Of a DNA stretch of 64,000 bases, positions 14,840 through 23,176 are shown piece after piece. The notes under the pieces are model-generated. The model was not told the origin of the DNA, did no database searches, and was given only the letters and a program-made list of their open reading frames with translations. Origin of the DNA: an uncultured Ruminiclostridium sp. (GTDB lineage Bacteria > Bacillota > Clostridia > Oscillospirales > Ruminococcaceae); NCBI GenBank assembly GCA_947630175.1, contig CANRGJ010000002.1, positions 62,001 to 126,000 of the forward strand, written 5' to 3'. The position numbers and the translations under genes were made by a program. Each line of letters starts with the position of its first letter. The first letter of the stretch is position 1.

Positions 14840-14847
14840 TGAAATTA

Positions 14848-14886
14848 TAAAAAATAAACACGGTTTTTTACCGTGTTTATTTTTTG
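14848..14886. terminator. Bidirectional terminator
   Basis: The stem aaaataaacacggt/accgtgtttatttt has a T-rich loop. It closes the aryl-acid operon on plus and the GTPase-NYN gene on minus. Confidence 0.87.
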
Positions 14887-14887
14887 T

Positions 14888-17473
14888 TCACTTTTTTAAG
14901 CGGTTCATCTCAATGTATTCCCGTATCGCTTTTTCAGCCTCTTTTACTTCCTCGTGAAGCTCGGAGGCGGAAACACGAAAAGCGCCGCTGCCGAAGATAA
15001 CGCTTTGCTCTGCTCCGTCGGAGGTGGCGACGCGCACCCTGCTGTTTTTTACAAGGTCGTGGGAAAGGCGCTCTATATAAGCGTCGGCGGTTTCGTTTTC
15101 CTTGGTGTAGACTATGCTTATGTTGCCTGCGGTCTGGTTTTCCCGCACTTCGCCTTTCACCTTGTAAGCGTCAAAGACGAGGATAAGCTCACAGCGGGTG
15201 AAGCCCTGATAGTTGCAGAGAACATTGATAAGACGGTTTCTTGCGATGTCAAGGCTTTTTTCCGCTTCGGCGCGAAGCTCCTCCCAGGCGAAAATTATGT
15301 TGTAGCCGTCAACGATAAGGTATTCGGGACCTGTTTTCACGGGTATGCGGCCTTTGTATTTTATCGGCTTTTCCGCAGGGCGCATAGCTTTGCGGCGGTC
15401 ACGGTCGATTTTTCCGTAGGTGCGCTCGAATATTTCAAGCAGCTCCTTGTCCTCTGCCGCCCGATCAACGTAGCTTTCAGCACGGCGATATGAAAGGATA
15501 CGGCGCTGTTCCTCACGGGCGGTTTTCAGGCAGGAGGGCAGGTGCATATACTCGCTCACCTTGTCCCAGCGGACGTTAAATCCTGCTCCGTGGGCGCAGA
15601 AAATTGAGTCGGCGGAATTTTCGATATCCCCGTCGCAGTCGTAGTTTATCTCCCTTATCACTTCGTCGGCGTCGGCGCACTCAGTGTATCCGCCAAAGGA
15701 AAAGAACAGCTTTCCCCTGCCGCTGGTGTAGCCTGACAGCTCACGCTGGTAGCCGCTTATCTTTGCGGCGGGGCAGGTGCCTTTTATCACGGCGTTTTCG
15801 CCCTCGGTGTATGGGGTCTCAAAATTGCCGTTCATTCGGCGTACGTCGGTGAGCGCTCTGCCTGAGCAGTCCTGGGGGAGTATCAGGGTGAAATTGCAGT
15901 AGGGCTCAAGGAGTATGCTCTTTGCACTGCGAAGCCCCTGACGAACTGCTCTGTAAACCGCTTGACGGAAATCCCCACCCTCGGTGTGCTTCAGGTGGGA
16001 ACGACCTGAGCAGAGGGTTATTTTAATATCGGTTATGGGCGAGCCTGTGAGTACGCCCAGATGAGTTTTTTCCGCAAGGTGAGTGAGGACAAGGTTCTGA
16101 TAGCTGCGGTCGAGGACATTGTCGCTGCACAGATTGTCAAATTGCAGTCCAGAGCCTCTCGGCAGGGGTTCGAGCAATAGGTGTACCTCAGCATAATGGC
16201 GGAGGGGCTCGTAATGTCCCACGCCCTCAACGGGTGCGGCTATGGTTTCCTTGTAGGCGACCTTTCCCTGTCCGAAATCTACTTTAATGCCGAATCTTTC
16301 CTCGATCATTCCGCGGAGAATTTCGAGCTGTACCTCTCCCATAAGTCGGACAAATATTTTCCCCACGGCGCTGTTCCATATAACGTGGAGCGCGGGGTCT
16401 TCCTCCTCAAGGCGCTTTAGATTTTCCAGCAGCTTGTACACGTCGACGTCGGCGGGCGGCTCCACGGAATAGGTCATTACAGGCTCAAGGACGGGGGAAA
16501 AGGAGTTTTCCTCAGCGCCCAGCCCCTGTCCCGCATACGAGAGGGAAAGCCCTGTCACGGCGCAGATACTCCCTGCGGAAACGCTGTCAGCAGTGGTGTA
16601 TTTGTTGCCCGTGTAAAGGCGTATCTCGTTTATTTTTTCGGCGTGAAGTTCGCCGTCGGAGCCGATATATTCTATCTGTTCACGGACGCTGAGAGAGCCG
16701 CCTGTGATCTTAAGGGAGGAAAGGCGCTTGCCCTTGTCGTCGGAGGAAATTTTGTAAATAACTGCGCCAAATCCTAAGCGGCGGGGCGGCTCCTGTGCAA
16801 AGCGGTCAAGCAGGCTCATAAGCTCCTCTATTCCCTGCATTTTTAAAGCGGAGCCGAAAATACAGGGGAAAATATGGCGCTTTGCAACGGCGGCGGCTAT
16901 GGTCTTGTCGGCGGCTTTTCCGCTGTCAAGATACTCCTCTGCAATATCGTCGTCCAGCATGGCACATTCCTCAAAAAATCTTTCCGAAGAGGTGTCGGTA
17001 AAATCCACGCAGGAAAAGGCAAGGCGGGTCTTTATATCCTCAAGCGCCCTTTGCCCGTCGGCATGGGGCATATCCATCTTGTTTATGAAAATAAAGGCGG
17101 GAACGCTGTATTCGTCCAGCAGTCGCCATATCGTCTCGGTGTGGCTCTGAACGCCGTCGGTGCCGCTTATCACGATCACCGCAAAGTCCAGCGCCTGAAA
17201 GGTGCGCTCGGTTTCGGCGGAAAAGTCAACGTGACCGGGCGTGTCCAGCAGGGTGTAGGTCCCGCCGTTTATCTCAAATTCTGCACGATGAGCGAACACG
17301 GTTATGCCCCTTGCTTTTTCTGCCTTGTCGGTGTCAAGGCAGGAGCTTCCGTCGTCAACTCTTCCCCGCTTCCTCGTTTCTCCTGCGGCAAAAAGCAGGG
17401 CTTCGGAAAGGGTGGTCTTTCCCGCGTCAACGTGAGCAGTTATTCCCAAAACGACGCGCTTTTTGTGTTCCGT
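14888..17473 (-). CDS. TetM/EF-G-like ribosomal GTPase fused to a Rae1/YacP NYN endonuclease domain
   Basis: About 861 residues. The N-terminal translational GTPase has G1 AHVDAGKTTL, G3 DTPGHVDF and G4 NKMD. EF-G domains II-V in TetM/TetO style follow: EDPALHVIW, VAYKETI, and EPYCNFTLILPQDCSGRAL. The TetM domain IV tip YSPVST is replaced by SHLKHTEGG, so drug resistance is doubtful. A charged linker of about 70 residues leads to an NYN domain over the last 144 residues (14891-15322). It carries VDGYNIIFAW, VFDAYKVKGE, YTKENETADAYIE and ATSDGAEQ, closely matching B. subtilis Rae1, which cleaves mRNA in the ribosomal A site. No ATG, GTG or TTG start exists after the promoter; ACG at 17473 sits 6 nt after GGAGGG. 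Confidence 0.88.
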   Translation of the reverse strand, partial: TEHKKRVVLGITAHVDAGKTTLSEALLFAAGETRKRGRVDDGSSCLDTDKAEKARGITVFAHRAEFEINGGTYTLLDTPGHVDFSAETERTFQALDFAVIVISGTDGVQSHTETIWRLLDEYSVPAFIFINKMDMPHADGQRALEDIKTRLAFSCVDFTDTSSERFFEECAMLDDDIAEEYLDSGKAADKTIAAAVAKRHIFPCIFGSALKMQGIEELMSLLDRFAQEPPRRLGFGAVIYKISSDDKGKRLSSLKITGGSLSVREQIEYIGSDGELHAEKINEIRLYTGNKYTTADSVSAGSICAVTGLSLSYAGQGLGAEENSFSPVLEPVMTYSVEPPADVDVYKLLENLKRLEEEDPALHVIWNSAVGKIFVRLMGEVQLEILRGMIEERFGIKVDFGQGKVAYKETIAAPVEGVGHYEPLRHYAEVHLLLEPLPRGSGLQFDNLCSDNVLDRSYQNLVLTHLAEKTHLGVLTGSPITDIKITLCSGRSHLKHTEGGDFRQAVYRAVRQGLRSAKSILLEPYCNFTLILPQDCSGRALTDVRRMNGNFETPYTEGENAVIKGTCPAAKISGYQRELSGYTSGRGKLFFSFGGYTECADADEVIREINYDCDGDIENSADSIFCAHGAGFNVRWDKVSEYMHLPSCLKTAREEQRRILSYRRAESYVDRAAEDKELLEIFERTYGKIDRDRRKAMRPAEKPIKYKGRIPVKTGPEYLIVDGYNIIFAWEELRAEAEKSLDIARNRLINVLCNYQGFTRCELILVFDAYKVKGEVRENQTAGNISIVYTKENETADAYIERLSHDLVKNSRVRVATSDGAEQSVIFGSGAFRVSASELHEEVKEAEKAIREYIEMNRLKK

Positions 17474-17479
17474 TTTTAT

Positions 17480-17489
17480 CCCTCCTTTT
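17480..17489 (-). promoter_or_regulatory. Ribosome binding site before an ACG codon
   Basis: The minus-strand AAAAGGAGGG ends 6 nt before ACG at 17473-17471, ideal spacing for initiation. No ATG, GTG or TTG lies in the window where this site could act; the next in-frame TTG is inside the first beta strand of the G domain. Confidence 0.75.
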
Positions 17490-17504: not shown

Positions 17505-17533
17505 ATTATACAGTATATTTTGCGGATTGGCAA
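17505..17533 (-). promoter_or_regulatory. SigA promoter of the GTPase-NYN gene
   Basis: On the minus strand TTGCCA (17533-17528) and TATAAT (17510-17505) are separated by 17 nt. The TTG within the -35 box is the only upstream in-frame candidate start, so it cannot be on the transcript. The predicted leader is about 25 nt. Confidence 0.82.
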
Positions 17534-17539
17534 GCAAAA

Positions 17540-17571
17540 AATAAGCAGCCTGTTTTTCAGGCTGCTTATTC
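17540..17571 (-). terminator. Terminator of the large repeat surface protein gene
   Basis: The stem ataagcagcctg/caggctgcttat is followed on minus by a T run. It lies between the surface protein stop and the promoter of the GTPase-NYN gene. Confidence 0.87.
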
Positions 17572-17581
17572 GTTTTATCTT

Positions 17582-20500
17582 TTACTTTCTGTTTTTCTTG
17601 GATATTCCCAGAACGGTAACTGCAAGTGCTGTAACTACAAAAGGAATTACAGGGAGAGTGCTTCCCGTTGCGGGAGGAACGTCGTTATCTGTGGTATCAT
17701 CAGGTTTTGTTGTGTCATCAGGCGGTGTAGCTATCTCATCTTCAACGTAAACCACTGCGTAAGCAGAGAATTTGTCGGTAAGGAATGTGATGGTCGCAGG
17801 GTCGTCGTCGATATCCGCGAGTATTTCCGCCTTGCCGTCGTGTACTCTTACAACAGCGTACGTTTTGCCGCCCAGAAGCGATTCGGGGATTGCTAAGGTT
17901 ATCTTTACCGCCTTTGAAAGCTGGGTTACTATGGTGGCGGTGCTGTCGACGTACTTGGTGATGTCTATTTCAAGATACTGTCCGAGAACGTAATCTTCGC
18001 CAATCAGCTCTTCGGCAAGCTGCTTGTCGCTGTCGGAAACGGAGTCTGTTCCGTCCTTTACGGAAAGAACAACCTTTATGTCCGCACCCTCGTCTCTTGC
18101 CGCCTTGTCTTCATCGGTGAGAACAGCGTCCTCAAAGTCCTTTATATCCTCATCTGTCATTTCAACAGAGGGAGCGTTTTCATCAGTTTCAGGCACAAAT
18201 TCAAGGTCGCCCTGTGTTGCGGGGATAACTTCGCCTTTTTCAAGAGTTTCTCCGCAAACCTCACATACAACGTCGCCTGTGTAGCCGTCCTCGGTAGGAG
18301 TTGCAGGCTTCTCGCCAACAAGCTCTGAGGAGGGTGTGTGATGTCCCGGTGCGGGGATAGCGCGGCTGTCCTTGACTGCGTCGCAGTTCTTGCAGTGAAT
18401 GGATTCGCTGCCGTCGGTAAGGCAGGTCATTTCCTTATCCACCGTGTAGTGGTCTTCCCAGTCGTGTCCGTTTGCCGCAAGTCCCTTGGTCTCGGTAACG
18501 CCGCAGACCTTGCAAATCCTCTGCTGAGTTCCCTCGTCGTCACAGTCAGGGCTTTCTATTGTTTCCCATTCGCCCCAGTCGTGTCCGAGGGCGGGGATAA
18601 CCTCGCTGTCCTTGGTAGCGGAGCAGTTTACGCAGTGGATAGACTGACTGCCCTCTGTGGTGCAGGTGGGTTCTACGTCAACGGTTGCGTGGTCTTCCCA
18701 GGTATGTCCGTTTGCTTCAAGTCCCTTGGTCTCGGTAACGCCGCAGACTTTACAAGTTCTCTGCTGTGTTCCCTCGTCGTCGCAGTCGGGGCTGTCTATT
18801 GTTTCCCATTCGCCCCAGTCGTGTCCGAGGGCGGGGATAACCTCGCTGTCCTTAGTTGCTGAGCAGTTTACGCAGTGGATAGATTGACTTCCCTCTGTGG
18901 TGCAGGTGGGTTCTACGTCAACGGTTGCGTGGTCTTCCCAGGTATGTCCGTTTGCTTCAAGTCCCTTGGTCTCGGTAACGCCGCAGACCTTGCAAGTTCT
19001 CTGCTGTGTTCCCTCGTCGTCGCAGTCGGGGCTTTCAATCGTTTCCCACTCGCCCCAGTCGTGGCCGAGGGCGGGGATAACCTCGCTGTCCTTGGTAGCG
19101 GAGCAGTTTACGCAGTGGATAGACTGGCTGCCCTCTGTGGTGCAGGTTGGTTCTACGTCAACTGTTGCGTGATCTTCCCAGGTATGTCCGTTTGCTTCAA
19201 GTCCCTTGGTCTCGGTAACGCCGCAGACTTTACAAGTTCTCTGCTGTGTTCCTTCGTCGTCACAGTCGGGGCTGTCTATTGTTTCCCATTCGCCCCAGTC
19301 GTGGCCGAGGGCAGGGATAACCTCGCTGTCCTTGGTGGCGGAGCAGTTTACGCAGTGGATAGACTGGCTTCCCTCTGTGGTGCAGGTGGGTGCTACGTCA
19401 ACGGTTGCGTGGTCTTCCCAGGTATGTCCATTTGCTTCAAGTCCCTTGGTTTCGGTAATGCCGCAGACCTTGCAGGTCCTCTGCTGCGTTCCCTCGTCTT
19501 CACAGTCAGGGCTTTCAATTGTTTCCCACTCGCCCCAGTCGTGACCGAGGGCGGGGATAATTTCGCTGTTTTTAGTTGCTGAGCAGTTTACGCAGTGGAT
19601 AGACTGGCTTCCCTCTGTGGTGCAGGTAGGCGCTACGTCAACTGTTGCGTGATCTTCCCATGTATGTCCGTTTGCTTCAAGCCCCTTGGTTTCGGTAACT
19701 CCGCAGACTTTACAAGTCCTCTGCTGTGTTCCCTCGTCGTCGCAGTCAGGGCTTTCTATTGTTTCCCACTCGCCCCAGTCGTGACCGAGGGCGGGGATAA
19801 CCTCGCTGTCCTTGGTAGCGTCGCAGTTTACGCAGTGGATAGACTGGCTGCCCTCTGTGGTGCAGGTGGGAGCCTTGTCTATTGTGTATTCCTCATTCCA
19901 CTTGTGTCCTGACGCCAAAAGTCCTCTTGTCTCGGTGGCGGAGCAAACCTTGCAGATGTGCTGTTCGGTTCCTTCATCGTCGCAATCTGACATCTTGATG
20001 ACAGTCCACTCGCTCCAGTCGTGTCCGAGGGCGGGAATGACCTCGCTGTCCTTGGTAACGCTGCAGTTTACGCAGTGAACGGACTTGCTTCCCTCTGTGG
20101 TGCAGCTGGGCTCAACGTCGACTGTTGCGTGGTCTTCCCAGGTGTGACCGTTTGCTTCAAGTCCTCTGGTTTCGGTAACGCCGCAGACGGTGCAGCTGTG
20201 CTGCTGAGTGCCGCTGTCGTCGCAGTCGGGGCTTGCTACGGTTTCCCATTCGCCCCAGGTGTGACCTGTGGGGGAAACTTCAAATGATACTCTGTGAAGC
20301 TCATCTCTGCAATTCTTGCAGTAGATGACTTCGTCATAGCTGCCGCCTTCGGTGCAGGTGGCTAATTTTTCGTTTTCCTTTATAGCCTCATCATGGCTAT
20401 GTCCCGTTGCGGGAATGTCCTCGCTGACTTTTGCAGTACCACATACTGAACAAAGGATCGATCTGCTGCCGTTAGTGGTGCAGGTAGGTTCTTTAATAAT

Positions 20501-23176
20501 AGTCCAGTCGTCGTTCCACTTGTGGTCGGAATCGGTGGAATCCTTGGTGTCAAGATGTCCGCAGACAGAGCATTTACGCTGCATAACGCCGGAGGAAAGT
20601 TCCTCCCATTCGCCGTAGGTATGACCTAAAGCTGGTACTACCTCAGGATCTTCAAGAACCGTGCCGCAGTCCTTGCAGACATAACAGTGGATAGTATTTC
20701 CGTCGGAGGTGCAGGTAGCAGGACTTTCAATCTCATCTGTGGGTTCGCCGAAATTGTGATCCTTTGCGGGGATAACTGTCTGTTCCTTTGTCTGGTCGCA
20801 GTTTTTGCAGTGAATGGACTGGCTGCCCTCTGAAGTGCAGGTAGGAGCAACGTCAACCGTCACGTGGTCTTCCCAGTCGTGGCCGTTGGGGTTGAGGTTC
20901 TGTGTTTCGGTAAATCCGCATCTGCTGCAGGTCCTCTTCTGACTGCCGCTGTCGTCGCAGTCGGGAGAGTTCACCGTTTCCCAATCCTTCCAGTTATGAC
21001 CGAGAGGGTCGATCGGTCTGATCTCCGCCTGATATTTGCCGCCGCATTCTTTACAGCAGATGAATAAATATTCAAGACCGGACTCGGTGCAGGTAGGATA
21101 TGTGATCTGTTCGGTTATTCTATACCACACTGTATGTCCGCCGTTAAGGGTGACAGTGCGTGTGGCGGTATTTCCCGCCTTGTCGGTGACGGTTATGACA
21201 TAGTCCTCAGGCGTACCTGTGGTGTTCTCTATCTTGTAGCTTGGCTGAAGCTGATTTACAGGTACGATTACATCAGTTGAAACGATAGAGGGTCCTTCCT
21301 CAACGCCAGGATCGCCCTGAGCGTTGCTGTCGAACAAAACTTCATCGTTAACGATGATCTTTGCTACTGCCTCGTCTTTGACGGAAAATTCCACGTCGGC
21401 GCAATATTTGCCGTTTTCGGCTACGCCTGTGATAACAGGGTCGTCAAAGTCTATCACGATACCTGTGGTGCTGGCGTAAGAGGAATTTCCAGCCCCGTCG
21501 GTGACCTTTACGTATATTATAGCCTTTTGCTGAGTTTTCAACTCAATGCTGTCAGTGTATGCTTTCCAATCAACCCCGTTTTTAAGGTCTTCATCAGATA
21601 TTTTTTTATTGCTTATGTAATAAGATATTTTCAGATCGGCTTCGTTATGATCGTCCGTAGCCGTTACGCTTACAGTCTTTTGAGAATTGAAATAAAGGTC
21701 GAAGGTGGGATTCTCGTGGAGAGCGCTCCATTTATGGCTGTCCATAGTTATGGTGATCGTAGGAGCAGTGGCGTCGAGGTATACCGCTTCGTACGTCCTG
21801 TTGCCTGTGCTTCCCTGCGGGATAGTGATAGTTGCAGAGGCTTCGCCTGTGGAATCATCTTCCTGTGAGGAAGTCCAGCCGACGAAGTTATACCCGTCTT
21901 TTTTGGGAGCAGGCAGGGTAATGTCGTTTGAATTGACGTTGTATGTGCCCTTGTATACGTTGTCCTCTTTTTGCCACTTCCCGTCTTCAATCGTTCCGCC
22001 GTTGGTTTCAAGGGTTATGGTGTATTCTATGGGAGTTCTTTCGCTGTAAAGGGAAATGTCTTCGGTTACTGTGTCGCTATCGAAATTCCATTCGCTTGAA
22101 TGGTCCTCGTCCTTAAACCATTTGTCGCCTGAGGAATAACCTTCCTTAGCGTACTCAACCTTGGGAGTGGTCAACTTGTCGCCGCTGTTGGCATAAGCTT
22201 CGGCAACAGTTATATCGCCCAGCATATAGCTTACCTTGAATACTCTGTGTTCGGAGTCAAGTACAGGAACATTGTCTGTTTTCAGATCCTGACTCCAGAC
22301 AACAGTTTCTTTTTTATTATCCTGTCCGTTCTGAAGTCCCCACGCCGCAGAACCGCTTTTCAGTTCTTCCGTGGTAAGACCGTAAACGGTTTCGCTTTTG
22401 CCGCTGAGTATTGCGAGTGAGGTGTGATCCTTGTTGAAATAGCAGTTTTCAACCTTACCTTTTGCGCTGTCAACAAGTCCTGCAATTGCGCCGAAAGCGG
22501 TGCTGCTCTTTACGTTGGCAAAGCAGTTTTTGATATCCTTGTCACAAATACCTGCGATACCGCCCACCAAAAGCGAGCCGAATACGCTTCCGTCGGCTGA
22601 ACAGTTCTCGATCGTGCCGTCGTTTATACCGCAAATAAGTCCGACATAAAAGGCGGTTATGTTGACGTCGCCCTTAACGCTCAGATTTTTTATAACGCCG
22701 TCGTTCTTGCCGAACAGTCCGAAGGTGTACAGACGTCCTTTGCCGAACATATCGTTGTTGTTTATTTTTAATCCTGATATTATGTGTCCCTGTCCGTCAA
22801 AAACGCCTTTGAAGGATATAGTTTTTGACGAGCCAGACGAGCTTGATGTGGAATAAAAACCGTTTGAGTTTCTGCCGATAGGATACCAGACGGTTTCACT
22901 GTCCAGCGTGATATCCTGAGTCAGCTGAAAATGAGCCGATGAATATGTACCGTCGGTATCGCTGTTGATAGCGTCCCTCATATTTGCAAGGTCGTCCGAT
23001 GTGCTTATGAGATATGGACTGTCCGCTGTTCCTTGGCCAGTCAGTGAGAATGTAAAATTCTCCTCTGCGGCAGCTTCGGCATGATGCGTCAGACTGCCTG
23101 CGGGGATAGCAGCAAGCGCTAACGCTGAGGCCGTGATAATGCTAATGATACGTTTAAACTTGTTGCCTGATAACAT
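17582..23176 (-). CDS. Large secreted, wall-anchored repeat protein with Cys/His-rich GHxW modules
   Basis: 1864 residues. Signal peptide 1-36 (basic start, hydrophobic core, HAEAAA cleavage region). Residues about 45-270 are GLUG-like repeats (KNLSVKGDVNI, IENCSADGSVFG, GGIAGI). Next come a Listeria-Bacteroides-type beta repeat (about 380-450, YTITLETNGGTIEDG), Ig-like domains (450-690), and about 24 modules starting GHxW or DHxW and holding Cys-x8/9-Cys-x2-Cys (about 690-1650). A beta-rich domain (KAVKITLAIPESLLGG) follows. The tail is PPATGS plus a hydrophobic helix and SKKNRK, a likely non-canonical sortase signal. An adhesin or structural stalk is probable; the partner is unknown. AGGAG precedes the ATG. 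Confidence 0.85.
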   Translation of the reverse strand: MLSGNKFKRIISIITASALALAAIPAGSLTHHAEAAAEENFTFSLTGQGTADSPYLISTSDDLANMRDAINSDTDGTYSSAHFQLTQDITLDSETVWYPIGRNSNGFYSTSSSSGSSKTISFKGVFDGQGHIISGLKINNNDMFGKGRLYTFGLFGKNDGVIKNLSVKGDVNITAFYVGLICGINDGTIENCSADGSVFGSLLVGGIAGICDKDIKNCFANVKSSTAFGAIAGLVDSAKGKVENCYFNKDHTSLAILSGKSETVYGLTTEELKSGSAAWGLQNGQDNKKETVVWSQDLKTDNVPVLDSEHRVFKVSYMLGDITVAEAYANSGDKLTTPKVEYAKEGYSSGDKWFKDEDHSSEWNFDSDTVTEDISLYSERTPIEYTITLETNGGTIEDGKWQKEDNVYKGTYNVNSNDITLPAPKKDGYNFVGWTSSQEDDSTGEASATITIPQGSTGNRTYEAVYLDATAPTITITMDSHKWSALHENPTFDLYFNSQKTVSVTATDDHNEADLKISYYISNKKISDEDLKNGVDWKAYTDSIELKTQQKAIIYVKVTDGAGNSSYASTTGIVIDFDDPVITGVAENGKYCADVEFSVKDEAVAKIIVNDEVLFDSNAQGDPGVEEGPSIVSTDVIVPVNQLQPSYKIENTTGTPEDYVITVTDKAGNTATRTVTLNGGHTVWYRITEQITYPTCTESGLEYLFICCKECGGKYQAEIRPIDPLGHNWKDWETVNSPDCDDSGSQKRTCSRCGFTETQNLNPNGHDWEDHVTVDVAPTCTSEGSQSIHCKNCDQTKEQTVIPAKDHNFGEPTDEIESPATCTSDGNTIHCYVCKDCGTVLEDPEVVPALGHTYGEWEELSSGVMQRKCSVCGHLDTKDSTDSDHKWNDDWTIIKEPTCTTNGSRSILCSVCGTAKVSEDIPATGHSHDEAIKENEKLATCTEGGSYDEVIYCKNCRDELHRVSFEVSPTGHTWGEWETVASPDCDDSGTQQHSCTVCGVTETRGLEANGHTWEDHATVDVEPSCTTEGSKSVHCVNCSVTKDSEVIPALGHDWSEWTVIKMSDCDDEGTEQHICKVCSATETRGLLASGHKWNEEYTIDKAPTCTTEGSQSIHCVNCDATKDSEVIPALGHDWGEWETIESPDCDDEGTQQRTCKVCGVTETKGLEANGHTWEDHATVDVAPTCTTEGSQSIHCVNCSATKNSEIIPALGHDWGEWETIESPDCEDEGTQQRTCKVCGITETKGLEANGHTWEDHATVDVAPTCTTEGSQSIHCVNCSATKDSEVIPALGHDWGEWETIDSPDCDDEGTQQRTCKVCGVTETKGLEANGHTWEDHATVDVEPTCTTEGSQSIHCVNCSATKDSEVIPALGHDWGEWETIESPDCDDEGTQQRTCKVCGVTETKGLEANGHTWEDHATVDVEPTCTTEGSQSIHCVNCSATKDSEVIPALGHDWGEWETIDSPDCDDEGTQQRTCKVCGVTETKGLEANGHTWEDHATVDVEPTCTTEGSQSIHCVNCSATKDSEVIPALGHDWGEWETIESPDCDDEGTQQRICKVCGVTETKGLAANGHDWEDHYTVDKEMTCLTDGSESIHCKNCDAVKDSRAIPAPGHHTPSSELVGEKPATPTEDGYTGDVVCEVCGETLEKGEVIPATQGDLEFVPETDENAPSVEMTDEDIKDFEDAVLTDEDKAARDEGADIKVVLSVKDGTDSVSDSDKQLAEELIGEDYVLGQYLEIDITKYVDSTATIVTQLSKAVKITLAIPESLLGGKTYAVVRVHDGKAEILADIDDDPATITFLTDKFSAYAVVYVEDEIATPPDDTTKPDDTTDNDVPPATGSTLPVIPFVVTALAVTVLGISKKNRK
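18210..21140 (-). repeat. Array of about 24 GHxW/C-C-C modules, core units near-identical at 240 bp period
   Basis: Two alternating module types, GHDWGEWETIxSPDC... (39 aa) and GHTWEDHATVDVxPTC... (41 aa), form an 80-residue unit. Between about 18430 and 19900 the 240-bp units are almost identical at the DNA level, for example the recurring cgcagtggatagact at 240-base steps. Outer modules are more divergent. Each module offers three Cys and at least one His. Confidence 0.9.

Follow-up and report, generated by a model that had tools for sequence, protein, structure and literature searches.

The window, a stretch of 64,000 nucleotides from an uncultured Ruminiclostridium sp., carries on its minus strand a reading frame (14888-17473) that stays open across 861 codons and encodes a translational GTPase, a charged linker and a C-terminal nuclease domain of the Rae1 (YacP) type (Table 1). 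The frame has no ATG start. Because the usual upstream start, a TTG at 17533, falls within the -35 hexamer of a sigma-70-like promoter that agrees with the consensus at 11 of 12 positions, because an in-frame TTG at codon 9 of the ORF is TTA in relatives of 98% and 91% identity, and because an ACG codon at 17473, 6 nt past GGAGGG, is kept in these relatives (L129 and L049, 98% identity; L160, 91% identity), the start codon appears from this comparison to be the ACG at 17471-17473 of the minus strand. Within the segment that begins 75 nt ahead of the ACG and ends 36 nt past it, no in-frame ATG, GTG or TTG located downstream of the promoter-like site was common to the three relatives. The gene looks like a single transcription unit, with a putative promoter and a hairpin on either side, as judged from scans whose counts were near chance (2 promoter-like sites found in the stretch against 1.8 expected in shuffles, and 5 terminator-like hairpins against 4.6).

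Table 1 Features of the fusion gene and its flanks. Positions are those of the window; residues are those of the encoded protein.
Feature	Positions	Strand	Basis
Fusion gene	14888..17473	-	861 codons plus stop; ORF translation and Pfam
GTPase (G) domain, residues 5-227	16793..17461	-	Pfam GTP_EFTU, 1.2e-50
Domain II, residues 236-315	16529..16768	-	Pfam EF-G_D2, 9e-5
Domain III, residues 330-401	16271..16486	-	Pfam EFG_III
Domain IV, residues 403-518	15920..16267	-	Pfam EFG_IV
Domain IV tip GRSHLKHTEGGDF, residues 490-502	15968..16006	-	KHTxGGDF conserved in relatives
Domain V, residues 521-601	15671..15913	-	Pfam EFG_C
C-terminal extension with FCxHGAG, residues 602-646	15536..15670	-	Unfused relatives stop near here
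Charged linker, residues 647-717	15323..15535	-	H644-to-V721 spacing across fused proteins
Conserved linker motif DKELLEIFERTYGKI, residues 675-689	15407..15451	-	Conserved alignment positions
NYN_YacP (Rae1-type) nuclease domain, residues 719-857	14903..15319	-	Pfam, 1.1e-49
Shine-Dalgarno-like GGAGGG before the ACG start	17480..17485	-	Sequence comparison with relatives
Promoter-like TTGCCA-17-TATAAT	17505..17533	-	11 of 12 consensus positions match
Terminator-like hairpin upstream of the fusion gene	17539..17571	-	Pattern scan
Terminator-like hairpin between convergent genes	14847..14887	+	Pattern scan

The surroundings of the gene were compared by clustering the ORFs of 80 related loci (see below), at 77 of which the fusion itself was recognised. 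No neighbour family recurred in more than 12 loci, those being on mixed strands, and the fusion protein matched 0 families of the PADLOC anti-phage defence models at E 0.001. An operon or a defence island was rejected on this lack of recurrent neighbours together with the lack of a PADLOC match. Upstream in the window, positions 17582-23176 of the minus strand encode a 1864-aa protein containing many near-identical repeats like GHDWGEWETIxSPDCDDEGTQQRTCKVCG, which by its sequence looks like a surface protein.

A preliminary description of the window had presented the protein as a full TetM/EF-G-like GTPase carrying a complete Rae1-type NYN domain on a charged linker of about 70 residues, and the Pfam domains, the GTPase motifs and the four acidic motifs of the NYN domain all bear this architecture out. 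The GTPase motifs AHVDAGKTT, RGIT, DTPGH, NKMD and GSALK were all found in the fusion protein, at positions mostly invariant among 49 aligned fusions. The five G motifs and domains II-V, by which a translational GTPase of the EF-G/Tet fold is recognised, are present, the match to domain II (EF-G_D2, 22.9 bits) lying under its curated cut-off of 27 bits. When the fusion protein was compared with the PDB by phmmer, it matched EF-G, TetO and TetM, and over residues 718-853 YacP of B. subtilis. The tip of domain IV reads GRSHLKHTEGGDF and differs from YSPVST, in agreement with the preliminary description; its His493 aligns with a His of EF-G that we take to be the domain IV tip His of that factor.

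The nuclease half gave a PF05991 (NYN_YacP) match of 169 bits against a cut-off of 24.6, so the profile search proposed in the preliminary description came out in favour of its assignment. Residues 718-853 align with chain residues 3-138 of 181 in the B. subtilis YacP chains 5mq8 and 5mq9, and, counted on this alignment, D722, D768, D797 and D819 of the fusion face D7, D53, D81 and D104 of Rae1, presumably its active-site acids. These four columns hold Asp in 111 of the 112 fused NYN rows, the exception (L206) being a gap, and in 34 of 34 separate NYN domains. Adjoining the acidic motifs, the fusions typically have F728 (98/112) and Y770 (111/112), positions at which separate clostridial NYN domains mostly have N and H. 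From this likeness we infer that the NYN domain of the fusion would cleave mRNA in the A site in a ribosome-dependent manner. According to an older prediction cited in the accessible text of PMC4342817, which is all that speaks for this view, the substrate that such a domain trims at or close to the ribosome would be rRNA or tRNA; we consider this very improbable, as excerpts of later papers describe Rae1 as a translation-dependent endoribonuclease of mRNA in the ribosomal A site (PMC6613710, PMC10100781, PMC12320835) and propose its entry into that site (PMC10100781).

The segment joining both halves is indeed charged, with E, K, R, A and P abundant, and its length varies, the spacing from H644 to V721 ranging from 65 to 122 residues in 102 fused proteins. 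Beyond what had been described, this otherwise variable linker has a conserved short motif, DKELLEIFERTYG, embedded in it. The motif recurs as DxELxxIFERTYG, a relaxed form of which was present in the linker of 77 of the 102 fused proteins, and no second copy was found elsewhere in the genome of origin. A long and variable linker is what one would expect if the chain bore two independent activities, the GTPase having a ribosome task of its own and the NYN domain cutting like free Rae1, with the fusion providing proximity and a fixed ratio and no GTP-driven hand-over, a simpler scheme than the one favoured below. The excerpted evidence that B. subtilis Rae1 functions unfused (PMC6613710) agrees with such independence, which we nevertheless regard as rather unlikely: the conserved motif within the variable linker speaks against it, as does part of the distribution data presented below.

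A search of named genomes returned at least 574 stretches encoding some relative of the protein, from which 80 loci with 48-98% identity were kept; they include Ruminococcus, Blautia, Faecalibacterium and Oscillibacter, and a full-length fused frame was present in 79 of the 80. The fused set drawn from this search consisted of the window protein and these 79 loci, a locus with a split frame (L092) being left out. The fusion is also matched, along 99-100% of its length, by two 'Bacteriophage sp.' records without annotation, both from human faeces (MT835563.1 and MT835514.1); these may be bacterial sequences deposited as phage.

Unfused relatives of the GTPase were found as well. The 20 that were read have open frames of 645-700 aa, are 41-47% identical and end near the start of the linker, and none of their 20 eight-kb loci contained a YacP-like ORF of at least 80 aa beside the GTPase. 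The exact tip KHTxGGDF is shared by 101 of the 102 fused proteins and by 19 of the 20 unfused ones. In four GTPase trees, the fused and unfused proteins formed sister clades that lay next to the Tet proteins and apart from an EF-G-type clade, to which proteins were assigned according to their length and similarity. The fused clade was supported at 0.94, 0.76, 74 and 83/90, the values of 0.76 and 74 being moderate, and the unfused clade at 0.96, 0.99, 93 and 97/93; the tree with 0.94 and 0.96 left out L150, L151, L182, whose frame is split, and L159, which is the window itself, and that with 83/90 and 97/93 comprised 27 of the 102 fused and 14 of the 20 unfused proteins, together with 5 of the 12 Tet-type and 4 of the 7 EF-G-type ones. 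As placed by these trees, the GTPase is a family of its own, sister to the Tet ribosomal protection proteins and with an unfused sister clade; the term TetM/EF-G-like of the preliminary description holds for its general likeness but not for its family membership. The same trees need a single fusion or a single fission, and fusion is the simpler reading, since separate YacP was also found in B. subtilis and in a cyanobacterium, which served as search controls. In a tree of the NYN domains, 33 of 34 separate YacP fell on one side of a branch with support 0.91. The exception, L044, groups with weak support among the fused NYN domains and comes from a genome (G247) whose GTPase (L173) is unfused, a possible case of fission as far as these placements go.

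With respect to its distribution, the fusion is dispensable, since NYN_YacP was absent from 23 of the 41 nearest genomes (17 of the 30 well-complete ones); the remaining 18, the genome of origin included, had it in frames of at least 850 aa (17 genomes) or in a 477 aa frame (one). We searched 20 of the 23 genomes without NYN_YacP for an unfused close copy of the GTPase and found none, their best matches being Tet-type or EF-G-type proteins with roughly 24-42% identity. Both halves therefore come and go together in the near genomes, contrary to what two independent activities would predict. The preliminary description had named a separate intact yacP as an argument against its reading; none was found in the genome of origin (2.7 Mb in 46 contigs, listed as 100% complete), which has no NYN_YacP other than that of the fusion.

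The preliminary description had left open how widespread the fusion is. In a sample of 393 genomes of the class, 250 had an NYN_YacP match and 166 had the GTPase part at E 1e-95 or better, and the fusion was present in 135, so that it looks widespread in the class. Fused or separate status was assigned mostly from open-frame length, in genomes that are partly drafts, and in eight cases (G083, G101, G110, G194, G210, G228, G273 and G333) fusion was called from GTPase and NYN pieces in split frames or at contig edges instead of from one frame. An intact separate YacP was found in only 1 of the 135 fusion genomes, as compared to 114 of the 258 others (66 genomes were re-searched; G299, with a 19-position fragment below the cut-off, was dropped, and G223, with an unclear 451 aa frame, was kept among the 114). 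The corresponding Fisher p value of 9e-25 ignores ancestry and is inflated; owing to shared ancestry it is not to be taken literally, and the exclusion is nevertheless strong. The single fusion genome with an intact separate YacP was G322; another, G407, had an additional separate copy that is apparently decayed. A sample of 239 genomes of the phylum contained 16 fusion genomes, 5 of them shared with the class sample, and 0 of the 16 had a second YacP. Judged from these counts, the fusion seems to substitute for the free-standing YacP/Rae1 where it is present.

The unfused GTPases showed the opposite association. Separate YacP was present in 23 of the 29 class genomes with an unfused GTPase, compared to 91 of the 229 other non-fusion genomes (p 9e-5), a comparison biased toward co-occurrence, as nine of the 29 (G099, G168, G184, G315, G328, G358, G373, G413 and G427) were inferred to be unfused from a GTPase match plus a separate YacP; for those read in sequence the figure was 14 of 20. 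Two genomes with weak GTPase matches (G274 and G418) were classed as neither fused nor unfused and yet are counted within the 258 and the 229. In the phylum sample, 3 of 3 genomes with an unfused GTPase had a separate YacP, one of these GTPases (that of G634) being only 36% identical. The unfused family, often found in genomes with free YacP, is thus a candidate partner of Rae1. Six of the 29 unfused GTPases came from genomes without any YacP, indicating that the GTPase does something in its own right, apart from YacP, and these six genomes also speak for the independence of the two activities.

The accessible text of Atkinson 2015 (PMC4342817) reports, for ten species of Clostridiales, Tet proteins that carry a YacP-like NYN domain, and suggests an RNase-based resistance to tetracycline. 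That the fusion could be a protein for tetracycline resistance to which an RNase has been added is in line with its position as sister group of the Tet ribosomal protection proteins, and with the public label 'TetM/TetW/TetO/TetS family' of a fused protein from Agathobacter rectalis; a fused Monoglobus protein is labelled 'translation factor GTPase family protein'. This explanation appears improbable to us in view of the curated NCBI Tet model (NF012153, cut-off 775 bits), on which the window protein scored 406 bits, L050 376, L088 429 and the unfused L161 456, all of them below the cut-off, and a true Tet control (L132) reached 832. Moreover, YSPVST was absent from the tip of all fused (0/102) and unfused (0/20) proteins, 0 of 122 in all, and was present in 11 of 11 proteins above the Tet cut-off, L132 included; one protein below it (L227, 561 bits) lacked YSPVST. 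A plain Tet resistance gene was rejected on the basis of this cut-off and the tip motif. In a sample of 118 genomes, 8 had a Tet protein above the cut-off and 3 of these (G037, G063 and G080) also carried the fusion, which is therefore unlikely to be the Tet determinant. Also against this explanation, the two plasmid records that matched at more than 80% coverage were replicons of 252 kb and 518 kb typed as non-mobilizable.

A plasmid record of Ligilactobacillus salivarius (L231, 2998-4917) encodes an unfused relative with 46% identity and the tip HTVGGDF that carries the label of a Tet ribosomal protection protein; drug-resistance evidence for it was considered and dropped, as the accessible portions of two papers tie no phenotype to the gene.

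Altogether, the tetracycline-resistance label of the fusion is probably misleading, as the preliminary description had anticipated from the tip of domain IV, and the best reading is that of a protein that serves quality control as a housekeeping function, or the regulation of genes, and not tetracycline resistance. This suggests that some of the tetracycline-resistance labels given in databases to these genes of gut commensals are mistaken, with consequences for resistome counts.

On balance, we think it probable that the fusion is the Rae1 of its lineage, that is, an mRNA endonuclease that depends on the ribosome and is joined to a translational GTPase dedicated to it, and its wide occurrence suggests the participation of a translational GTPase in the step at which Rae1 acts. 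Domain IV of EF-G and TetM reaches the decoding region. Most likely, the GTPase of the fusion would bind ribosomes with an empty or blocked A site, with the KHTxGGDF tip of its domain IV placed in that region; upon GTP hydrolysis domain IV would leave, and the Rae1 domain, on its tether of 65-122 residues, would enter the freed A site and cut the mRNA. The cut transcript would then decay, and the ribosome left on it could be rescued through trans-translation, a possibility raised by the presence of an SmpB gene in the genome of origin. Weighing against this reading are the six unfused GTPases from genomes without YacP, the moderate support for the fused clade in two trees, the placement of L044, the inflation of the exclusion statistic by ancestry and the absence of NYN_YacP from 23 of the 41 nearest genomes. 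The preliminary description had imagined GTP-driven entry into the A site as the act that delivers the cut. A contribution of GTP at the A site is retained in the scheme above, but direct delivery meets a steric clash: Rae1 has reportedly been modelled in the A site, and its simultaneous occupation by domain IV and the Rae1 domain is probably not feasible, so a sequential hand-over is favoured because the two would compete for the site.

More tentatively, the fusion may be a GTPase-delivered nuclease of the no-go type, in which the GTPase would recognise stalled ribosomes, clear the A site and hand the codon to the tethered Rae1, the linker motif would be the switch, and in the unfused GTPases this machine would operate together with a free Rae1. 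Eukaryotes pair Hbs1/Pelota with a no-go nuclease, and this possibility, if true, would make the fusion a one-chain bacterial counterpart of that pairing.

The combination of a Tet/EF-G-like protein with an NYN domain is not new, having been in print since Atkinson 2015, as the accessible text of PMC4342817 makes clear, so the question of prior description that had been left undecided is settled. A limited literature search found no further paper on the fusion besides that one: neither PMC8547433, whose main text contains no NYN, nor PMC11780869, in which tetM serves solely as a reporter, deals with it. The Tet-NYN proteins of PMC4342817 have, by the description in its accessible text, the same architecture as the window fusion and, compared by description only, very likely belong to the same family. 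That text treats them as Tet proteins, whereas we find that they form a sister family lacking the Tet tip, with a far wider spread and a near-exclusion of separate YacP. EF-G provided the best PDB matches of the fusion across domains II-V, yet the GTPase falls outside the EF-G-type clade and scored 298 bits on the EF-G model TIGR00484, whose cut-off is 659. With Tet(M) and Tet(O) the fusion shares the G, II, III, IV and V domains followed by a C-terminal extension, which in Tet(M) matters for function according to the accessible text of PMC4750697, but it differs in having KHTxGGDF in place of YSPVST, an extension of its own with FCxHGAG, and a score under the Tet cut-off. The NYN domain aligns with B. 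subtilis Rae1/YacP (5mq8 and 5mq9) and keeps the four acidic positions; that Rae1 is a free protein, whereas the Rae1 of the window is the C-terminal domain of a fusion.
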